A stretch of DNA of 51,771 nucleotides from Dehalococcoidia bacterium. Lineage in GTDB: Bacteria; Chloroflexota; Dehalococcoidia; GIF9; AB-539-J10. Positions 1,204-51,570 of this stretch are shown piece by piece (position 1 is the stretch's first letter; each line of letters opens with the position of its first letter). The stretch is taken from the NCBI GenBank assembly GCA_021157895.1, contig JAGGVQ010000001.1:1-51771 (forward strand), read 5' to 3'. The notes under the pieces were generated by a model. That model did not search any database. It saw nothing but the letters and a program-made list of their open reading frames with translations, and was not told the DNA's origin. The translations under genes were made by a program, and so were the position numbers.

Positions 1204-3246
1204 TTAGTAACAGCTAATACCGGTACACCTCGCTGACCGTAACACAGCTTCTATGGCAGAAATAGCAGCATCCCTTGTTTCTTCTGGAAGTTCGTCGACT
1301 ATTTCAGCGAGACCGAGTGCTGTTGCTGTCCTTGCAGTTGGAATTTCAGGAAGCCCCGATATCTCATGCCAGAAATGGACGAACGCGTCAGCATAGGCAG
1401 CGGCCTCGAAATAATTCCGCGAAGTTAGCATAAACTTCATCATCATCAGTGCGCAGCAGGCATTCTTTTGCTGGTCACCAATTAACTTACCTGCCTCTAT
1501 TGCCTGAACTATAGCGGAGGGTATCTTGCCCAGTTCCCCGATTGCCTGTAAGCCCATATTCTTCTCAAAATCAACGAGCTCTTCCACACTCCCAAGACCC
1601 TCATCATCTCCAGGAATATCCGGGTAAGTGATGACCATATGATCAGCACACGCCTTCTTCAGCGCCTCATAGACTGCCTTTGCCAGCTCCTGTTTATATA
1701 GGCAAGCATAACATGCAGCCCGCGCATCCTCTACATCATCATTAATGAGTTCCTCTCTAGCCTGGTCGCAACACTCTTTTAGTTTTGCCAGCGCTTCCTC
1801 AGCCTCACGGAAATGAGTGGACTCGCCACAGTTATCTCTCCTGCTCTCCACACTTTGTGAGCATAGCTCATATGCTTTGTAGCAATTCGCAAGGCAGATA
1901 TTAGCCAACCAGTACTTGCTCAACCTTATTTTCTCCCGCTCTACTTCACGTGCAAGGTCATTGGCCTCGCTCTTTGCCTCTTCTACTTTTTTCTCATCAA
2001 GCTCAGAGGAGCCTGCCCCCATTTCCTTTTTTATCTCTTCAAGTCCTTTTCGATATTCCCCCACCTCACCGGGATAGACCCCATTAGGAAACCGCTCCTT
2101 GAATTTTTCATATTTCTCTTCCAGTTCGTTAACCTTATGCTCAGCATCTTCTGCAGTATGCTCCGCTTTCCGGCGAGCGGCATCTACCCGGTTTTCCAGC
2201 TTCTCTAGTTCCTCCAGATCATCGAGGCATACCTTGTAACGCGCTTTGATTTGCCCTATCTTTCTACTCAGCTCGGCAATCTCCACAGCAAGGCTTTCAG
2301 TATCCTCTTCGTATTTCTGTATCGCTTGATTTAGTTTCGTAAGCTTCGGCGTGATGCTTAAGTGTATTCTCGAATCTAGGGCAACACACTCCTGCTGCAG
2401 CCTGTTAAGAGACTCTTGTTTGGCTGCAAGTTCACTCCTCAATGCCTGTAGCCTCTGATATACCCAACCTACACGGTCCAAATAACCCTTACATCGTGAG
2501 GGCGCCGAAGGATTACGCAACTTACAATCATGGTAGAAACTAACGTCCTGCTTCAAGGCCTCCACCATTCCTTCAATCCTGCCCTCGATAATCGGTACCT
2601 CATTCTGCAAAGCAGTAATATCATCGGGGCAAGTGGCCTTCTTAGCTTCAAGGTTTTCCTTCTCTACTTCAAGCTTCTCCTTTTCTATCCTGGCGTTATT
2701 TAATTTGTCCTCCAGTTCATTTTTCTTGTCCTTCATCTCAGTCAGCTTGTTCTCCAACTCGGCAATCTGATCTTTTAGCTTCTTGCACTTCTCCTCTAAT
2801 TCCTCAGGTAAAACCACAACATCGGCAACATCTGGTATAACACTAGCTTCTTCCGACAGCATCGAATCTGCCAGTTCTTGCCACTGGTAGTCTGGTAGTT
2901 CATATTCGCCTAGGTATTCCTCAAGGTCCGCCGTATCCTCAGCATTCTCCCCAGCAATAAAGAACCAGGTCTCACTACCATAGCCTGCACTATCCTTGAT
3001 TAGGTAACAGCTTTCCCCTTGCCCAAGATAAAGCGTCAGAAGATCAACTTCCCCTAGATACCCTTGAAAAGAAATTTCCTCTTCCGAGAGTCCAAGCAAC
3101 TCAAGGGCTTTCGCTAAATCATCTGTACCTTCAGTTTCTGTCACAGTATTTTCATCTTCATGCACTCCTGTTCCAACACAGCCGGTTATCCCCAGAATAA
3201 GCGAGCTTATTATCAGCATCGTAAGAGGAATATAGAGTCTTTTCAT
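1204..3246 (-). CDS. Large coiled-coil lipoprotein of unknown function
   Basis: 680 aa. The N-terminus is a lipoprotein signal: K2-R3, a hydrophobic stretch to residue 19 and a lipobox ITGC with the acylated cysteine at C23, so the protein should be anchored on the outer face of the membrane. After an acidic linker, residues about 150-455 are dense in Glu, Lys and Leu with heptad-like spacing, a long coiled coil split by a short Cys/Pro-containing stretch. The C-terminal ~220 residues are helical and rich in cysteine (for example NICLANC, CCDQ, CYACLY, ACCALM), suggesting disulfides or metal binding outside the cell. I do not recognise a family. It has its own promoter at 3294-3322. Confidence 0.8.
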   Translation of the reverse strand: MKRLYIPLTMLIISSLILGITGCVGTGVHEDENTVTETEGTDDLAKALELLGLSEEEISFQGYLGEVDLLTLYLGQGESCYLIKDSAGYGSETWFFIAGENAEDTADLEEYLGEYELPDYQWQELADSMLSEEASVIPDVADVVVLPEELEEKCKKLKDQIAELENKLTEMKDKKNELEDKLNNARIEKEKLEVEKENLEAKKATCPDDITALQNEVPIIEGRIEGMVEALKQDVSFYHDCKLRNPSAPSRCKGYLDRVGWVYQRLQALRSELAAKQESLNRLQQECVALDSRIHLSITPKLTKLNQAIQKYEEDTESLAVEIAELSRKIGQIKARYKVCLDDLEELEKLENRVDAARRKAEHTAEDAEHKVNELEEKYEKFKERFPNGVYPGEVGEYRKGLEEIKKEMGAGSSELDEKKVEEAKSEANDLAREVEREKIRLSKYWLANICLANCYKAYELCSQSVESRRDNCGESTHFREAEEALAKLKECCDQAREELINDDVEDARAACYACLYKQELAKAVYEALKKACADHMVITYPDIPGDDEGLGSVEELVDFEKNMGLQAIGELGKIPSAIVQAIEAGKLIGDQQKNACCALMMMKFMLTSRNYFEAAAYADAFVHFWHEISGLPEIPTARTATALGLAEIVDELPEETRDAAISAIEAVLRSARCTGISCY

Positions 3247-7211: not shown

Positions 7212-7240
7212 TTGCAAATACAGACAGTTGAATTTAAAAT
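7212..7240 (+). promoter_or_regulatory. Promoter of the helical-repeat protein gene
   Basis: TTGCAA (7212-7217) and TAAAAT (7235-7240) are 17 bases apart, about 30 bases before the ATG at 7277. Confidence 0.5.
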
Positions 7241-7276
7241 GAAGGTAAGTGGGGGTATGTCCACCGCAAGGTTGAG

Positions 7277-8863
7277 ATGCCAAAAAAAATATTATCCGCA
7301 ACTCCAACAGAATTAAGTCCTCTTGAGAAAGCCATCGCCCGGGCAGAGGAACTGGGAAGATCTGCCTCGGCGGCGGCCCAGGAGTCCGAAAGAATATCTC
7401 AAGCGGCAATCAAGAGGGTAGAAGAAATAAGCCGCAGGGCCTTAGAAATTGCCGAGGAAGCCAAGAAAGCCTCCCAGGAGGCGATAAGCCGCGCCGAGGA
7501 GATGAGCAAAATTTCCCAGGATGCTGTGGAAAGCGCCAGGGAGAGCCAGAACGCTGAGGTTTCCGCCAATAATTTTGCCCAGACCGTGGCTGAGTCTCAT
7601 GCCCTGGCCATGGCGGCTCAAAAAGCCTCCAGTGATGCCATCCAGGCATCCCAATCACAACTACAGGATATAAAGGAAACGACAGACTTGGCTCTGCAAA
7701 CAGCTAGGGAGGCAACAAGGAAATCTGAGGAAATAAGCAAGGTAGCTATAAGATCAGCAAAGGAATCAAAAAAGGCATCTGAGGAGGCAGTAAAGAAAGC
7801 GGGCCAGGTAACTCGACAAGCCCAAAAAGGAATTGAAGAATCAACTAGGAGATTCCAAGATGCCATCACGAGGGCAGAAAACTCAAGCCAAGCAGCACAA
7901 ACAACAGTAGCAGAGACAATAAAAACATTTAACGAGGCGATAGAAAAATCTGAGGAAATCACCAGAACATCGCGACAATTACTGGACACTGCGAAGGCTG
8001 CCCTCAAGGACGCAACGAGCAGCGCTGATAAAACCAGTAAATTAGCTATGTCGGCTTCCGAACAGGTAAAAAAGACATCCGCAGAGGTAATAGCCAGGAC
8101 TGAGGAAGTTAACCAAGCTATTAAGGAAAGGATGGAGGAAGCAAAAACCCAGGTTGAAGAGATAGTACGCAGGGCTGAAGCTGCCAACAAATCAGCCCAA
8201 GAAGTGGTGGAAACAGCTACTAAAAGGGCCCTGGAGGCAAGCAACCGGGCTGAAGAAATCAGCAAGGCGGCCAGGGAGGCAGAAGAAGAAGCCACCAGAG
8301 CAACCCAGGAAGCTGTGAATAAAATGAAGCAGATATCACAATCAGCCATTGATGCCGCAGAAGAAGCTAAAAAGACCTCGGAGGAGGAGGTCAGGAAAGC
8401 ACTACACGCAACCGAGGAAACCCTGACAGCAGCGATAAACCTGCTCAATGAAACAATAAGCGGAAGCGAGAAAACAAGCAAAGGAGCTCAAAAGGTTGCC
8501 AGGACACTGATGCAGATGTTCAACCAAACAAAGGGCAGAGCAGATATCGTAATCCCGCAGGAAACCACAAGTGTTCCGGAAAAAGATGAGGTGGTAATAG
8601 AAGATGTACTAAAAGAAATACCCAGTCCAACCGGGGAAGTAGATAGAGGGACACCTCCTGATGCAGTGCTTGCAGTTGAAGAAGCAATAGGGAGAACATC
8701 TCAGAACACAAGTGAGGATAAGGAATCACCCGATATCAAGAGTGAAATTGAGACTCGCTTAAAATCCCTGAGGCAGATGTACTCACCTAATACATCCAAG
8801 AATGACGACCAGAAAACCCGAAATCAGAACAGTCCCTACCGTAAAGCACCGCATGATAAATAG
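7277..8863 (+). CDS. Long Ala/Ser/Glu/Lys-rich helical-repeat protein
   Basis: 528 aa with no signal peptide or membrane segment. Residues about 15-415 are an almost unbroken helix-forming stretch. A degenerate motif (for example KKASQEA, SKISQDA, TRATQEA, KQISQSA, KKTSEEE) recurs at steps of 11 and 14 residues, as in hendecad/heptad coiled coils, LEA proteins and apolipoprotein-like amphipathic helices. Cysteine is absent. The last ~110 residues are Pro/Ser/Asp-rich and probably disordered. AAGGTTGAG precedes the ATG. The next gene on the strand encodes another helical-repeat protein, and a CetZ-like GTPase faces both. It may be a cytoskeletal or membrane-surface filament protein; its true function is unknown. 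Confidence 0.85.
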   Translation: MPKKILSATPTELSPLEKAIARAEELGRSASAAAQESERISQAAIKRVEEISRRALEIAEEAKKASQEAISRAEEMSKISQDAVESARESQNAEVSANNFAQTVAESHALAMAAQKASSDAIQASQSQLQDIKETTDLALQTAREATRKSEEISKVAIRSAKESKKASEEAVKKAGQVTRQAQKGIEESTRRFQDAITRAENSSQAAQTTVAETIKTFNEAIEKSEEITRTSRQLLDTAKAALKDATSSADKTSKLAMSASEQVKKTSAEVIARTEEVNQAIKERMEEAKTQVEEIVRRAEAANKSAQEVVETATKRALEASNRAEEISKAAREAEEEATRATQEAVNKMKQISQSAIDAAEEAKKTSEEEVRKALHATEETLTAAINLLNETISGSEKTSKGAQKVARTLMQMFNQTKGRADIVIPQETTSVPEKDEVVIEDVLKEIPSPTGEVDRGTPPDAVLAVEEAIGRTSQNTSEDKESPDIKSEIETRLKSLRQMYSPNTSKNDDQKTRNQNSPYRKAPHDK

Positions 8864-8953
8864 CGTTCTGGTAGAAGACTGAAGAGACATATGCTAGAAT
8901 GCCATACGCAAAACAAATAATAAAAGCAGGTCATAAAAAGGAGGGAGATCAAG

Positions 8954-9415
8954 ATGTCCATGAAGGAGAATCAACCAGTATTTAAGAAAGAGGGAAGATT
9001 TGAGCGACAGGAAGAAGCGCCCAAGAAGCCCCCTCAGGAACCAACTCCTCCCGCGCCAGTAGCCCCTGAGGTACAGGCAGGAGGTTCTCTGGACCAGGTT
9101 CGCCAGAAGGCTATGTCTGCTTACGCCGCATACGTGGAGGCTGAGAGACAAGTAGCCAACGCCTACAAGGAACAGGAAAAGCAGGTGGACAGCACCTACA
9201 TCAAGGCGCTGGAGCAAGCTCAGAAGACATATGAAGAAAATGTCCTGCGGGCAAGCAGGACTCGAGATGCAGCTGTGGCGCAGGCCAATAGAGCATACGA
9301 GGAGAATGCTACACGCGCAGCAAAAGCTCGAGAGGAAAGCATTGCGCAGGCCTGGAAAGCTCGCGAAGATACTCTATCCAGTGCCTGGAATATCTATATC
9401 AAGACCCGGCAATAA
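8954..9415 (+). CDS. Small protein with 22-residue amphipathic repeats
   Basis: 153 aa. Residues 1-45 are Pro/Glu/Lys-rich and disordered. Residues 69-134 hold three 22-residue units (69-90, 91-112, 113-134) with a conserved third-position Tyr (NAYKEQ, KTYEEN, RAYEEN) and A-Q near the end; a shorter partial unit follows. This is the 2x11 period of apolipoprotein-like or hendecad coiled-coil helices. AAGGAGGGAGATCAAG precedes the ATG. It follows the 528-aa helical protein and converges on the CetZ-like GTPase gene. No known family is recognised. Confidence 0.85.
   Translation: MSMKENQPVFKKEGRFERQEEAPKKPPQEPTPPAPVAPEVQAGGSLDQVRQKAMSAYAAYVEAERQVANAYKEQEKQVDSTYIKALEQAQKTYEENVLRASRTRDAAVAQANRAYEENATRAAKAREESIAQAWKAREDTLSSAWNIYIKTRQ
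9158..9355 (+). repeat. Three tandem 66-bp units coding 22-residue repeats
   Basis: The three units encode segments beginning NAYKE, KTYEE and RAYEE and ending in Ala-Gln plus one or two residues. They are similar at protein level but diverged at DNA level, so the expansion is old or under selection for helix period. Confidence 0.7.
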
Positions 9416-9426
9416 ACTTGAGGAAA

Positions 9427-9512
9427 AGCAATAACGCCTCTGGTACACATCACTTGCTATACATCACATATCGTAGGTATAGAGAGAAGGTGATGCAAAG
9501 AGGTGTTTTGCT
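9427..9512. repeat. Imperfect inverted repeat between convergent genes
   Basis: AGCAATAACGCCTCT at 9427-9441 pairs with AGAGGTGTTTTGCT at 9499-9512, with one bulge and one G-T pair around a 57-base loop. Its position between convergent genes suits a transcription end signal, but the loop is too long for a classical terminator. Confidence 0.3.
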
Positions 9513-9522
9513 ATAAGAATAG

Positions 9523-10698
9523 CTACAAGAGTACCGGAATATCTTCAAAGATGTCTTCAATCTTTCTATCAGCGTACTCTATTCTACCCTGTCTGGCTTT
9601 TACCAGCTTAATTAGCTCTATCGCCCTGTTGAAGTAGTTGGTTATTTTCTGGACCCTGGTGAATTCAGATAGAATCACAGCCACATCCAGAGAACCCTTC
9701 GTCCTGGGATAGTCGCCATAGCGGATCAATGCATTAGGAGCTACCATCCGCAAGCTGCCAGCGACATCACTCAGCATCCCCATATTTATCTCATCGCGAG
9801 GAGCGGAGACCAGAAACAGTCCCCTCCTGGCATCTCTGGGATCACATGTAAGCGATAACTCACCAAGGGCTTCATCCATCGCACGAGTTCCCCTGCTATC
9901 TTCAATCGCCCTACCTCTAAAATTACTACTCCTGCCAAAGCTGAAAGCACTGCGCGAAATATTGATCCTGCCCTCGCCCAGAACCGTCCAACCTGCCAGA
10001 GTTTCTGTAATGTCGCCAGCATCGACAACCTTGGCTCCCACATACTGGGCAATCCTCTCCTCTCCAGCACAAAGCAAGTTATAAAACGGCTGAACCAGCC
10101 TCTCATTAATATCCATCAGGTTATTTATGATCGTGATGTCCTTGTTAACATACCTTTGGTTATCAACAAGAAATACAGCATCTGCCACTAGGTAGGTCGA
10201 TTTCAGGCACACGGCAGTGTTGTAAATTGTCCTGGCCTCCGTCCTCTCCTCCTGTTGAAATGGCAGTACAATAAGATTATATACTGGCTTATCGAAATAA
10301 CGTTCCTTTAACTGCCGGGTCAACTCTGCTATTGAGCCGGAACCAGTACCTCCTGAAGCTCCAGCAACCAGCAATATGGCATCTGAATCAGCAAACCCCC
10401 GCGTCTTTCTGACAGCATCAATAATCTTATCACCACTTTCCTTCGCTATGTCAGCCCCAATTTCACTTAACTTGCCTACCCCATGACCATGGGTCTTTTG
10501 GCCACCAATGGAAATCCGATGGCTAGAATCAGCTTTAATGGTATTCAGGCCACTTAAATCAGTGATGTCCGTGTTGATAGCAAAAGCATCCAGGATGATA
10601 TCAACTTTTCTCCGGGCACGCGCCCTCTTATTCAATCTGGCGAAGGCATCGGCAACACGACCACCACATTGCCCCAAACCCATAACTACTAGTTTCAT
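9523..10698 (-). CDS. CetZ-like tubulin/FtsZ-superfamily GTPase
   Basis: 391 aa. The N-terminal GTPase fold carries G7-x-G-x-C-G-G (nucleotide loop 1), FAINTD at 39-44, GHGVG at 71-75 and the tubulin signature GGTGSG at 116-121. Downstream, NNLMDINERL matches the T7-loop region that completes the GTP site of the next subunit. GHGVG and the overall pattern resemble archaeal CetZ and TubZ-like groups more than cell-division FtsZ, and the variable C-terminal tail of FtsZ is absent. It should form GTP-dependent cytoplasmic filaments. The promoter at 10706-10735 places transcription start at the ATG, so the mRNA is probably leaderless. The facing genes encode helical-repeat proteins. Confidence 0.88.
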   Translation of the reverse strand: MKLVVMGLGQCGGRVADAFARLNKRARARRKVDIILDAFAINTDITDLSGLNTIKADSSHRISIGGQKTHGHGVGKLSEIGADIAKESGDKIIDAVRKTRGFADSDAILLVAGASGGTGSGSIAELTRQLKERYFDKPVYNLIVLPFQQEERTEARTIYNTAVCLKSTYLVADAVFLVDNQRYVNKDITIINNLMDINERLVQPFYNLLCAGEERIAQYVGAKVVDAGDITETLAGWTVLGEGRINISRSAFSFGRSSNFRGRAIEDSRGTRAMDEALGELSLTCDPRDARRGLFLVSAPRDEINMGMLSDVAGSLRMVAPNALIRYGDYPRTKGSLDVAVILSEFTRVQKITNYFNRAIELIKLVKARQGRIEYADRKIEDIFEDIPVLL

Positions 10699-10705
10699 CT
10701 AGCTA

Positions 10706-10735
10706 ATTGTAGATAAGCTTGCATGAATATGTCAA
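10706..10735 (-). promoter_or_regulatory. Promoter of the CetZ-like gene, predicted leaderless
   Basis: On the minus strand TTGACA (10735-10730) and TACAAT (10711-10706) are 18 bases apart. Only seven bases lie between the -10 box and the ATG, so transcription should begin at or one base before the start codon. No ribosome-binding site is present. Confidence 0.75.
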
Positions 10736-46912: not shown

Positions 46913-47544
46913 TATAGCTTATCCAACGAGTGGTTCCCTGAAACCAAAGTGTCGTAATCACCCGGATGTCATCACAAAGCCCCTCTGTATGGAAAGTTAA
47001 AAGAAAACATCGATGCAGTACTGATTCTTCACACCATGATCGAATACTAAAATTACGATAAACTGTTAAAGTTGATAGGCCCGAATAAAAATAGATTCTC
47101 CTCACTATTGAGGAGGACGATGCCTCATATCGTGTTCATGAATAATCTCAGGGGTAGACTGGAGCTGTAGCACGATGCAGATACCAAAAGAGAGGCATTG
47201 CCACAGGACAGAATCCCGCAGATTGGCCTCTCATCGTGATTCTAGTGTAAGAATAACAAGCATCCTCATTATCGTCAACGAACCGCTGGTAGATTAACCA
47301 ATGGATAAACAAACCCCCCTTCAAAACTTGAACAAAGTCCCTTCTTCTCAAACAGAAATTCGAACACTGTTCCGAAAGGCCCACCAAGAGGTAATATTAT
47401 TACCACAAAACAGCTTGTACTCCGCTCTTCCTTTGCCATTCCCATTTACTTCCACGGAAAGATTTATTGAAAAGGCAGTGGCAATCCTGAATGTCAAAGA
47501 GTAATATTTGAATAATCCGTCTAGCTTTGAAGGAACCAAGGTTA
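46913..47544. other. Intergenic region before the restriction-modification gene
   Basis: 632 bases without a supported gene. A plus-strand 67-codon frame (47301-47504) has no good ribosome-binding site or recognisable family. A perfect hairpin CTCCTCA-CTAT-TGAGGAG lies at 47098-47115 without a T run. No transposase fragment or direct repeat was recognised. Confidence 0.4.
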
Positions 47545-50500
47545 ATGCCTGGAGACTTACCAAAGAACCAAAGTTTACCCGATGAGCCAGAAGCGTGGTT
47601 TCAAAACCGCGGCTTGTTTTCTGACCATTTCCTCAAGGCACGACTGCCTCAATGGAAAGAGTGGAAAGCTGATGAAGAGATTGTCACTTTCCGAGAGGAA
47701 CTTTTGTCCTTATATGAATCAAAAAAGGCCATCCTCCCAAATCTCAATGAGGCTCAGACAGAGAGGGAGTTTATACAGCCTGTCCTAGACCTATTAGACT
47801 ACAGCTATATAGTTCAGGCTTCTACAAAGATCGGTCAGAAAACGAATCGGCCCGACTATGCTTTATTCCCGGACGAAAAAACAAAGAATAATGCTTACCA
47901 GAAGCTCAAAGATAATGATTACACTCAGTCTATTGGCATTGCCGATGCCAAGTACTGGGAGAGAGAGCTTGACCTGGCCAAGTCAAGCGAGCGTGATACT
48001 TATACCAACCAGAATCCCTCCTTCCAAATAGCTGGCTATCTCACTGGCACAAAGCAGACATGGGGGATCCTCACTAATGGTCGCTTATGGAGGTTATACT
48101 CTACCAAGTCCCATTTACCCCTGGGGAATTATTACCAAGTTGACCTGGTTCAACTTCTAGAAGCCCCCAAGGAGAAACTCAAATATTTCTATCTCTTCTT
48201 CCGCAAGGCCGCTTTAATTCAAGTTGACAATAAGTCATTTCTCGACCACGTATTTGAAGGTAGTAATGAATATGCGGTTGAACTGGAAACCGATATTAAA
48301 GAACGCGCTTATGAAGTTGTAGAACTTCTGTGTCGTGGCTTTGCCGCCGGTTTCCCTCGTGAACAACTCGCTGAGCCAATTCTGAAAGATATCTACGACA
48401 ATTCCCTAACTCTTCTTTACCGTTTGCTCTTTGTCTTCTACGCCGAGGCAAGAGGGCTTCTGCCCTCGACTACCAGCATAAGCTATCGCGATAACTACAG
48501 CATGCACAAAATAACTCACGATATTGACGAGGTAAGGAAGAAAGGGCAGCAACTCACTTCTCAATCAACTATTTACTATCAAAGGATTGGTAGCCTGTTT
48601 AGCTTGATAAATACGGGCGATCCCAGCCTGAACGTACCGGAGTACAATGGTGGGCTTTTCAACTCAGAAGAACATCCTTTCCTTGAGAAACATGCTATTG
48701 CCGATACCTTTCTCGTTCCAGCAATCCACCAGTTATCACGGACTACGGATAAGAACCTCGGGCATGAGGTCTCCGTTGATTATAATACCCTGAGTGAGCG
48801 CCATTTAGGCAGTATCTATGAAGGCCTGCTGGAATTTAAGCCGCGCCTTGCTCCTTGCGATCTGGTAACAATAAAAGAAAAAGGCAGCATAAAATATACT
48901 CCTGCTAACAAATATCCTAAGAAGCAGATAGTTCACAAAAAGAGCGAGCTGTATCTTGCTAATGACAAGGGCGAACGCAAGGCCAGCGGCTCTTACTATA
49001 CCCCGGAATATATCGTTAATTACATTGTGGAGAACACTCTCGACCCACTGGTGAAGGAAGCCCAGGATAAGATAAAAACCCTAAAACCAGAGGTAGATAA
49101 AGGTGTTGAAAAGTGGCAAAAGTTAAAGGAACAGAAGCAAGGCTTAGAGCCAACAGGGAAATATGACCGCAAGATAGCTGAGGAGCGTGAGCGACTGCTT
49201 GAACCCTATCTTTCCCTGAAAGTGCTTGACCCTGCTATGGGCAGTGGCCACTTCTTGGCCCGTGCCACAGATTTTCTGGCTGAGGCCATAGCCACTGACC
49301 CCTCTATTGAGTCACCAACTGGACTTACTGAAGAATCGGAACTCACTTACTACCGCCGGCGGGTGGTAGAAAGCTGTATCTATGGGGTTGACTTAAACCC
49401 CTTAGCTGTTGAGCTTGCCAAGCTAACATTGTGGCTAGGAACTATGGCTAAGTCCAAGCCGCTCTCATTTCTAAACCATCACCTGCGCGTGGGCAACAGC
49501 CTCATTGGCGCTAAAGTGGCTGACCTCGATGAGATACCTAAAGCGAAAATGAAGAAGGGTAAATCCCTTGACCTCAGCCGTGCACCTGTACAGCTAGGAC
49601 TCTTCCATGAAGCTTTCAATAAGAAACTATATGTTTTACTTCAGAGCAGGGCACTGATTTCCCAATTACCTACCGAAACGCTGGAGGATATCCACAATAA
49701 AGAGAAATGGGAACGTGATTTTAAGTATAACGCCGAACGTTTCCGCACCCTTGCCGACCTGTGGGTCAGTACCTATTTTGATAATAATGTCAGGTGGGAT
49801 GAATACAACAGTTTGGTGGAGAACCTCCAGTCACCTCAGCCAGAATGGGAGAATCTCTTGCAAAAAGAGTGCATTCAGAGAGCCTTAACTATGAGTGGGG
49901 AAAAACACTTCTTTCACTGGGAGCTAGAGTTCCCCGAGATCTTCTACGATGAGCAGGGCAACCGTAAAGCCAATGCTGGTTTTGACGCTGTCATAGGGAA
50001 CCCGCCATATGTCGACTCTGAGGAAATGACTAGATCGCACGCTGAATTGAGACAATATTGTACAGCACAATGGATTTCTGCTTCAGGTAACTGGGACTTA
50101 TTCGTAGTGTTTGTTGAATTGGGACTTACCTTAGTTAGGGTAGGAGGTTACTCAAGTCTAATTGTTCCAAATAAGTTACTTGGCGCTGAATATAGCATTG
50201 TCGTACAATCACTAATTAAGACAAAACGCCCTATAGCTTTTAGAGATTACTCTCGGGCTAAAGTATTCGAAGCAGATGTTTATCCCATAGTATATTTTAT
50301 TCAATCGGTAAAAGGAGCAGACAGTGATAATGTAGCTCTTAGCAGTGCAATAAAGACGGAATCTGAACAACCCCAAATAACCCAGGAGGCACAGATTAAA
50401 CTGAAGGTTCTGGCTGCCCTACCAAATGGTTATTGGTGGCCAATATTTTCCGGAAATATCCAACCCATTGCGAAAGCAATTGAAGTTTCAAAGCCTCTCG

Positions 50501-51570
50501 CTGAATTCGCAGAGGTTTTTGGAGGTGCCTCGGTATCAGAATCATACAAGCTGATAGAGTTATTAAAACCACTCAATGACTGCCCGTTGAATAATGATGA
50601 GGATTTTGTTTTTATTAATACTGGCATGATAGATAGGTATGAATCATTATGGGATACGGGCCCAACTCAGTATATCAAGCAAAGCTACCAAAGACCTGTT
50701 GTTCCACAAGCAGCTTTATTGAAAGAGATGCCTGCAAGATATAACCAAGCCCGAGCAGCTAAATTGATACTGGCTGGCATGGTAAAGAGGTTGGAGGGGA
50801 TTAATGATCCGGATGGCGCAATTTTAGCTGGCAAGTCAACAGTCCTTGTTACGAACAGCCCATTATCACTTAGCTATATATTGGCGCTACTTAATAGCAA
50901 ATTATTGACGTTGCTATGTAAAGAAATATACGGGAGTTTGGCTTTATCTGGTGGGTTCTTATCAATCGGACCACCACAAGTTGCGAAACTACCTATCCGT
51001 ATTATCAATTTTACTTCCACAGACGAAGAGCGCAAGCAGCTGCTCGAGCAAGCTAAAAAACTATATCAGGAGTATCTCCATAGCCAGGATTGGGATAAGG
51101 TTCTCGCTTTTGTAGCTCAATGCTTGCCTCAAAAAACCGTTGGTACTCCGGACATGGAACACGAGCAATCAGATGTGATTCATGACCTGCTAGCTTTCCT
51201 GGCAGAGGAAATGACCCGGCTTAATAAGGAAAAGCAGGCGAAGATTAAAAACTTCCTTACTTGGCTGGAGAAGGAAATATTGAAAGGCTCTGTTGAAGAC
51301 CAGAAGAATAAAACCAAGATTAAAGGCTTTCACGAAAGCAGCTTCGAGGATTTATTGGGCATTCTTAAGAAAAACAAGATTGTCCTAGACCCCTGCCCCT
51401 CTAATATCAGGGATATCATAGCTGGTGAATTTAACACTGCTATGGATACCCTCACTCCCTTGAAGGCTCACATCAGGGCAACCGATGTCCTCATTGACCA
51501 GATAGTCTATAAGCTTTACAGCCTTACTGATGATGAAATCGCCATCGTGGAAGAGGGAAAGGCAGGATAA
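47545..51570 (+). CDS. Type IIG-like restriction-modification protein (Eco57I/BREX-like class)
   Basis: 1341 aa. The N-terminal part has a PD-(D/E)xK-like nuclease pattern: RPD104 followed by D134-A-K136. The adenine-specific methylase follows: motif I LDPAMGSGHFLARATDFLAEA at D562, and motif IV G-N819-PPY822. A TaqI-like C-terminal target-recognition part contains GGFLSIGPPQVAKLPIRII. Thus one chain would both methylate and cleave. The ATG at 47545 follows CCAAGG; TTG 47527 is an alternative. Whether it acts as restriction enzyme, BREX or DISARM-type methylase needs the neighbouring genes. Confidence 0.88.
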   Translation: MPGDLPKNQSLPDEPEAWFQNRGLFSDHFLKARLPQWKEWKADEEIVTFREELLSLYESKKAILPNLNEAQTEREFIQPVLDLLDYSYIVQASTKIGQKTNRPDYALFPDEKTKNNAYQKLKDNDYTQSIGIADAKYWERELDLAKSSERDTYTNQNPSFQIAGYLTGTKQTWGILTNGRLWRLYSTKSHLPLGNYYQVDLVQLLEAPKEKLKYFYLFFRKAALIQVDNKSFLDHVFEGSNEYAVELETDIKERAYEVVELLCRGFAAGFPREQLAEPILKDIYDNSLTLLYRLLFVFYAEARGLLPSTTSISYRDNYSMHKITHDIDEVRKKGQQLTSQSTIYYQRIGSLFSLINTGDPSLNVPEYNGGLFNSEEHPFLEKHAIADTFLVPAIHQLSRTTDKNLGHEVSVDYNTLSERHLGSIYEGLLEFKPRLAPCDLVTIKEKGSIKYTPANKYPKKQIVHKKSELYLANDKGERKASGSYYTPEYIVNYIVENTLDPLVKEAQDKIKTLKPEVDKGVEKWQKLKEQKQGLEPTGKYDRKIAEERERLLEPYLSLKVLDPAMGSGHFLARATDFLAEAIATDPSIESPTGLTEESELTYYRRRVVESCIYGVDLNPLAVELAKLTLWLGTMAKSKPLSFLNHHLRVGNSLIGAKVADLDEIPKAKMKKGKSLDLSRAPVQLGLFHEAFNKKLYVLLQSRALISQLPTETLEDIHNKEKWERDFKYNAERFRTLADLWVSTYFDNNVRWDEYNSLVENLQSPQPEWENLLQKECIQRALTMSGEKHFFHWELEFPEIFYDEQGNRKANAGFDAVIGNPPYVDSEEMTRSHAELRQYCTAQWISASGNWDLFVVFVELGLTLVRVGGYSSLIVPNKLLGAEYSIVVQSLIKTKRPIAFRDYSRAKVFEADVYPIVYFIQSVKGADSDNVALSSAIKTESEQPQITQEAQIKLKVLAALPNGYWWPIFSGNIQPIAKAIEVSKPLAEFAEVFGGASVSESYKLIELLKPLNDCPLNNDEDFVFINTGMIDRYESLWDTGPTQYIKQSYQRPVVPQAALLKEMPARYNQARAAKLILAGMVKRLEGINDPDGAILAGKSTVLVTNSPLSLSYILALLNSKLLTLLCKEIYGSLALSGGFLSIGPPQVAKLPIRIINFTSTDEERKQLLEQAKKLYQEYLHSQDWDKVLAFVAQCLPQKTVGTPDMEHEQSDVIHDLLAFLAEEMTRLNKEKQAKIKNFLTWLEKEILKGSVEDQKNKTKIKGFHESSFEDLLGILKKNKIVLDPCPSNIRDIIAGEFNTAMDTLTPLKAHIRATDVLIDQIVYKLYSLTDDEIAIVEEGKAG

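Follow-up and report, generated by a model that had tools for sequence, protein, structure and literature searches.

Does a CetZ-like GTPase that is encoded opposite two helical proteins in a bacterium of the class Dehalococcoidia take part in a filament system, and if so, might that system be related to the loss of the cell wall? This question is raised by a 51,771-nucleotide stretch of DNA (hereafter the window; positions 1 to 51,771 of contig JAGGVQ010000001.1 in GenBank assembly GCA_021157895.1), which is contig C17 of a 737 kb genome that is 68% complete. An initial annotation had described open reading frames (ORFs) for a GTPase and two helical proteins, and all three are present where described, with the GTPase gene convergent to both helical genes. 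Here, these are denoted CZb, a CetZ-like tubulin-superfamily GTPase of 391 amino acids (aa) (9523..10698, reverse strand); H528, a long helical rod of 528 aa comprising 25-residue repeats (7277..8863, forward strand); and H153, a short helical protein of 153 aa comprising 11-residue repeats (8954..9415, forward strand). Our analyses lead us to favor, with moderate confidence, a wall-independent filament or scaffold module that consists of CZb and H528, with H153 as an accessory protein.

CZb exceeded the cut-offs of the Pfam families Tubulin (102.9 bits; cut-off 33) and CetZ_C (54.7 bits; cut-off 21.6) and failed that of the NCBIfam ftsZ equivalog TIGR00065 (49.7 bits; cut-off 295.2). The closest solved structures by sequence were CetZ1 (125 bits, near full length) and CetZ2, with FtsZ structures scoring at most 36 bits. 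An AlphaFold model of CZb (predicted local distance difference test (pLDDT) score 86; predicted template modeling score 0.87) had CetZ1 as its top fold match (4b46; E 1.6e-29; template modeling (TM) score 0.93 on the target) and also matched CetZ2 (4b45; TM score 0.92), while the best FtsZ match reached only E 1.1e-22, such that CetZ1 outranked every FtsZ. The ratio of nonsynonymous to synonymous substitution rates (dN/dS) of CZb was 0.09 when compared to a genome of the same genus, indicating purifying selection. Three tubulin-superfamily genes were identified in the genome: CZb, which is not beside ftsA, a CetZ-like paralog denoted CZa (contig C12), and the true FtsZ, which adjoins FtsA (contig C10).

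Phylogenetic reconstruction was conducted with 89 proteins, in which archaeal CetZ was represented by plasmid and PDB sequences and FtsZ by Chloroflexota homologs; because archaeal FtsZ, TubZ, and tubulin were not part of the tree, its root was assumed to lie between FtsZ and CetZ. Within this sampling, FtsZ homologs formed one branch (Shimodaira-Hasegawa-like approximate likelihood ratio test (SH-aLRT) support of 100) that did not include CZb, in agreement with the earlier distinction of the GTPase from ordinary FtsZ. A separate branch (SH-aLRT 100) comprised archaeal CetZ and five sequences from Dehalococcoidia, and CZb was also outside of it. Instead, CZb was placed among CetZ-like proteins specific to the Dehalococcoidia, in a subclade of 20 non-redundant sequences (support of 98), and its relatives from named GTDB genomes were all Dehalococcoidia. 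Collectively, these observations show that CZb is CetZ-like and not FtsZ. We use the name CetZ-like rather than CetZ because CZb is outside the canonical archaeal CetZ clade; the CetZ-type assignment of the initial annotation therefore stands as a relationship to canonical CetZ but not as membership in that clade. Nor is a CetZ-like protein in bacteria of this class in itself new, since sparse, paraphyletic CetZ-like sequences in Chloroflexota-Dehalococcoidia are mentioned by Santana-Molina et al. (2023; PMC9871819).

The sequence motifs noted in the initial annotation were in part recovered. The GGTGSG phosphate-binding loop (T4; residues 116-121; 10336..10353, reverse strand) is invariant in 32 homologs, and GHGVG (residues 71-75) is invariant or nearly so among them. 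NNLMDINE, however, is not the T7 loop: it aligns with the segment GYDEINE of CetZ1 that is positioned before that loop, and the VVDSSE of CetZ1 (4b46; D215 and E218) pairs with VVDAGD of CZb (residues 224-229; 10012..10029, reverse strand), in which D226 and D229 are invariant in the same 32 homologs.

The C-terminus of CZb, DIPVLL (9526..9543, reverse strand), is conserved and resembles the C-terminal peptide of FtsZ. Tails of CZb homologs end in (D/E)IPxL(L/I/F) in 29 of 30 cases, with the thirtieth reading SIPSLLD, and 43 of the 65 remaining CetZ-like proteins, with many of the CZa type among them, have a looser form of the pattern. Because CZa has such a tail without having a rod, the partner of the CZb tail would more likely be one that is shared with CZa than H528. 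SepF was absent in the 26 relatives examined and was rejected as the partner of the tail.

The tail also bears on an alternative in which CZb is a divergent FtsZ that acts in or beside the Z-ring, with the helical proteins serving as filament bundlers comparable to ZapA/ZapB or EzrA. The FtsZ of the same genome has LDVPSFI near its C-terminus, and with FtsA present and SepF absent, the two tails could compete for FtsA. Nonetheless, we consider this alternative unlikely: CZb scores far below the FtsZ equivalog cut-off and is on a separate branch of the tree, which led us to reject CZb as an FtsZ; an ordinary FtsZ is encoded beside FtsA in the same genome; and many relatives encode other CetZ-like paralogs without encoding CZb.

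The pairing of CZb with the helical proteins had been proposed from gene neighborhood only, and comparative data now support it and show it to be specific to the CZb clade. Genes were called in 80 regions, nearly all centered on CetZ_C matches across the class. A convergent helical gene was identified within 1 kb downstream of 30 of 95 CetZ-type genes, at a stop-to-stop distance from CZb of mostly 70-115 nucleotides. The carriers of this gene formed a single clade in the tree that included 19 of 20 non-redundant CZb members; the twentieth runs off its contig. Outside of the linked set, none of 49 sequences from the class (a number that includes the contig-truncated CZb member) had a helical gene, and the paralogs CZa and CZc of the same genomes were without these helical neighbors. 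A search of 61 relatives recovered H528 from 20 genomes; in 19 of these it is next to CZb, and in the remaining one it is at the start of a contig. The linkage spans many genera and families, while genes farther out differ between genera.

H153 orthologs were identified in 27 of the 61 relatives. The gene was called in most CZb loci, and in three loci where it was not called the space is present and a search for orthologs finds H153 there. Neither of the two outcomes that the initial annotation had named as refuting its proposal was thus seen: CZb does not group inside ordinary FtsZ, and its helical neighbors are conserved, H528 in 19 of 20 members and H153 less regularly, being absent in five loci and retained without CZb in one genus. 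Since the rod follows the CZb clade and the paralogs CZa and CZc are without it, the core module is the GTPase and the long rod, to which H153 is accessory.

Despite lengths that vary from 425 to 900 aa, all 29 H528 orthologs have a helical period within 3.56-3.59 residues per turn, and the power of this periodicity is far above that of shuffled sequence. Excess identity was maximal at lags of 25 (0.19) and 50 (0.16) residues, far over that at a lag of 7, and an iterative profile identified 482 units of 25 residues in the 29 orthologs, mostly exactly 25 residues apart (in the window H528, 13 units were scored, with the exact 25-residue spacing at 10). Given the helical period, 25 residues therefore correspond to seven turns. 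In three proteins tested, the 25-residue unit explained 15-32% of the variance in hydrophobicity, when compared to ~1% for a 7-residue unit. The 528-aa protein is thus better described as a 25-residue helical repeat than as the coiled coil that the initial annotation had suggested, and an ordinary heptad coiled coil was rejected. All 29 orthologs end in an R(L/M)xxLxx(M/T)(Y/F/L) motif (of the RLxFLxxMY type), followed in most by an acidic tail. In the window, this conserved C-terminal region (DIKSEIETRLKSLRQMY; 8732..8782, forward strand) has the motif copy RLKSLRQMY and a tail that is more basic.

The unit of H153 is likewise revised, from 22 residues to 11 (two of which make up 22), with 3.65-3.69 residues per turn (3.67 for the 11-residue unit) and, in nearly every member, a single spacing of 14 residues. 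An A-Y near the start of the helix and a W near its end are invariant. The model of H153 is one straight helix (residues 45-152; pLDDT ~97), and a dN/dS of 0.21 when compared to a genome of the same genus indicates purifying selection. No Pfam or NCBIfam family matched H528 or H153 over cut-off, with only weak generic matches detected, and no relative with a solved structure was found for either protein. As judged from their sequences, the H528 repeats constitute a new family, the helical geometry of which is unusually constant.

A second alternative is that the role of the helical proteins is unrelated to CZb (e.g., in stress, phasin-like, or related to the surface layer) and that the linkage has been kept as a convergent arrangement that is rarely disturbed. 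The genes do not run in the same direction but converge, one genus without CZb has kept H153 beside another helical protein, and a weak match to a phasin-like hidden Markov model was detected. However, among the CetZ-like clades the linkage is confined to that of CZb, it is maintained across many genera and families with differing flanks, and every H528 in the set of 61 relatives is either adjacent to CZb or at the edge of a contig; we regard this alternative as somewhat less probable than a role in division. A plasmid- or phage-derived system for DNA segregation of the kind formed by TubZ and PhuZ, two further tubulin-like GTPases of bacteria and phages, the first of which is among the fold matches of CZb (at rank 50), is very improbable, given that no match was found in 50,697 phage records and plasmid matches were to haloarchaeal CetZ only (on which grounds a phage or plasmid origin of CZb was rejected), that housekeeping genes and tRNAs surround CZb in the window, and that no DNA-binding gene was seen among its neighbors and no centromere-like repeats were noticed (iterons were not searched for).

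The setting in which a scaffold module of CZb and H528 would operate was examined in 118 Dehalococcoidia genomes that were at least 90% complete, with the locus genome included as an exception. Strong matches to MreB and to FtsW/RodA were identified in exactly the same 52 of the 118 genomes, and together they cleanly mark the walled lineages of the class. CetZ_C proteins were detected in none of these 52 genomes and in 30 of the 66 genomes that have neither marker (Fisher p = 7e-10, with genomes taken as independent). Members of the Dehalococcoidales are reported to have no peptidoglycan and to have an archaeal-like S-layer (PMC10608941), with cells that range from irregular discs to cocci; organohalide-respiring Dehalococcoides are irregular discs without peptidoglycan (PMC10284905). 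In Archaea, CetZ controls the shape of cells rather than their division (Duggin 2015, cited in PMC12583498).

We infer from these data that CZb would assemble into GTP-dependent protofilaments, in which the T7 loop (D226 and D229) of the next subunit would trigger GTP hydrolysis and turnover. H528 is predicted to be a long rod (~60 nm if one helix) that presents a repeating 25-residue face and may run along or bridge CZb filaments, with the RLxFLxxMY peptide at its C-terminus, after a flexible linker, as a candidate docking element. H153, a straight amphipathic helix, might contribute to anchoring the assembly at the membrane or on H528 and would be dispensable in some lineages. By analogy with the FtsZ tail, the DIPxLL peptide of CZb may dock to a partner held in common with the sister paralog. 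Division would be carried out by the separate FtsZ/FtsA pair, while the module probably helps to set cell shape or envelope organization in Dehalococcoidia without peptidoglycan and MreB.

Several observations weigh against a scaffold module of this kind. FtsZ and tubulin filaments have a subunit spacing of ~4.2-4.4 nm, and the 25-residue repeat of H528 spans ~3.7 nm, so one H528 repeat per subunit is unlikely. The genes are convergent and do not form a single operon. Five loci (L104, L106, L115, L119, and L121) have CZb without an adjacent H153, and genus g9 encodes neither CZb nor H528 and has kept an H153 homolog beside another helical protein; the latter argues for a function of H153 that does not depend wholly on CZb. 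The association with wall loss concerns CetZ generally and not CZb alone, and 36 wall-less genomes are without CetZ. Finally, the loss of peptidoglycan has been reconstructed as a single event (PMC10284905), such that the pattern of CetZ and wall loss represents one evolutionary coincidence and not 30.

An internal scaffold that had not been described before is probable in wall-less Dehalococcoidia, and it may help to shape their cells. A more specific proposal, put forward only tentatively, is that this is a tubulin-superfamily cytoskeleton with a dedicated filament-binding rod that helps to shape bacteria without peptidoglycan and MreB. It would thereby parallel, in Bacteria, the way in which CetZ acts on shape in Archaea, with the rod as a cross-linker comparable to spectrin or tropomyosin. 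If this proposal is true, CetZ-type biology, the partners of which are largely unknown, would be extended into Bacteria. How bacteria keep their form after wall loss is an open question for which the Dehalococcoidia are a natural test case, and two to three named genes, a new repeat family, and a candidate docking motif are now open to experiment.

Other features of the window and of related genomes were noted. A sigma-70-like promoter was identified ahead of CZb (TTGACA-18-TACAAT; 10706..10735, read from 10735 to 10706 on the reverse strand) that agrees with the suggestion that the GTPase has its own promoter; it is a consensus match only (11 of 12 positions) and the top of six promoter matches in the window, where shuffled sequence averages 4.4. 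Elsewhere in the window are a 680-aa ORF that is lipoprotein-like and contains long segments of coiled coil (1204-3246, reverse strand) and a 1347-aa ORF that by eye resembles a fused type II restriction-modification enzyme (47527-51570, forward strand). The H153 homologs of genus g9 (L182:3814-4284, L183:3806-4276, and L184:4018-4488) neighbor a helical protein of 346-383 aa with an N-terminus that is DivIVA-like by eye and without a Pfam hit.

The paralogs of CZb have neighbors of their own. Directly upstream of CZa, and in the same orientation, is the gene for a secreted membrane protein (cluster c1) that spans the membrane once and has TIG/Ig-like repeats; this pairing was found in ~20 loci across the order (e.g., L034:10106-11827 on contig C12 of the locus genome, G000) and is another conserved CetZ-like partnership. 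CZc (~370 aa; families f2-f4, L054-L059) adjoins AmmeMemoRadiSam/AMMECR1-type genes and is convergent with CZa, 6-9 kb away. Four single-contig genomes (G070, G099, G116, and G130) each have two genes of the FtsZ type and between one and three of the CetZ-like type. The five Dehalococcoidia sequences that group with archaeal CetZ (L040, L123, L124, L127, and L128; SH-aLRT 100) have CetZ_C scores of ~95-137 bits, and a separate transfer of archaeal-type CetZ to some Dehalococcoidia is possible.

Among known systems, CZb shares with CetZ1 and CetZ2 of Haloferax volcanii (4b46 and 4b45) the GTPase fold, the CetZ_C domain, and the acidic T7 pair, and the hosts of both also encode FtsZ and are without peptidoglycan. 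CZb differs from these proteins in being bacterial, in being outside of the canonical clade, and in its DIPxLL end, as well as in having a dedicated convergent rod protein, of which the literature examined makes no mention for archaeal CetZ. The CetZ-like proteins of Santana-Molina et al. (2023; PMC9871819) are almost certainly the same group as CZb; unlike the present analysis, the portions of that text available to us describe no paralog subclades, partners, repeats, or link to wall loss. What is new thus looks to be the module and not the GTPase group, and the text of the open-access papers searched was found to describe neither the rod partner specific to the clade, nor the 25-residue repeat, nor the wall-loss pattern. 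FtsZ with SepF, ZapA/ZapB, or EzrA resembles the CZb module in combining a GTPase filament with helical adaptors and a C-terminal docking peptide (all three as predicted for CZb), whereas CZb is not FtsZ and its partners are not homologous to SepF, ZapA/ZapB, or EzrA by Pfam or NCBIfam. TubZ and PhuZ are, like CZb, non-FtsZ tubulin-like GTPases outside of the Archaea, but they function in plasmid and phage DNA segregation, whereas CZb is chromosomal and has other partners. In Prosthecobacter, the helical-repeat protein bKLC is genetically linked to BtubA/BtubB, and as with CZb, a bacterial tubulin relative is thus linked to a helical-repeat protein; however, BtubA/BtubB are true tubulins and bKLC is a tetratricopeptide repeat protein, whereas the partner of CZb is a rod of 25-residue repeats.

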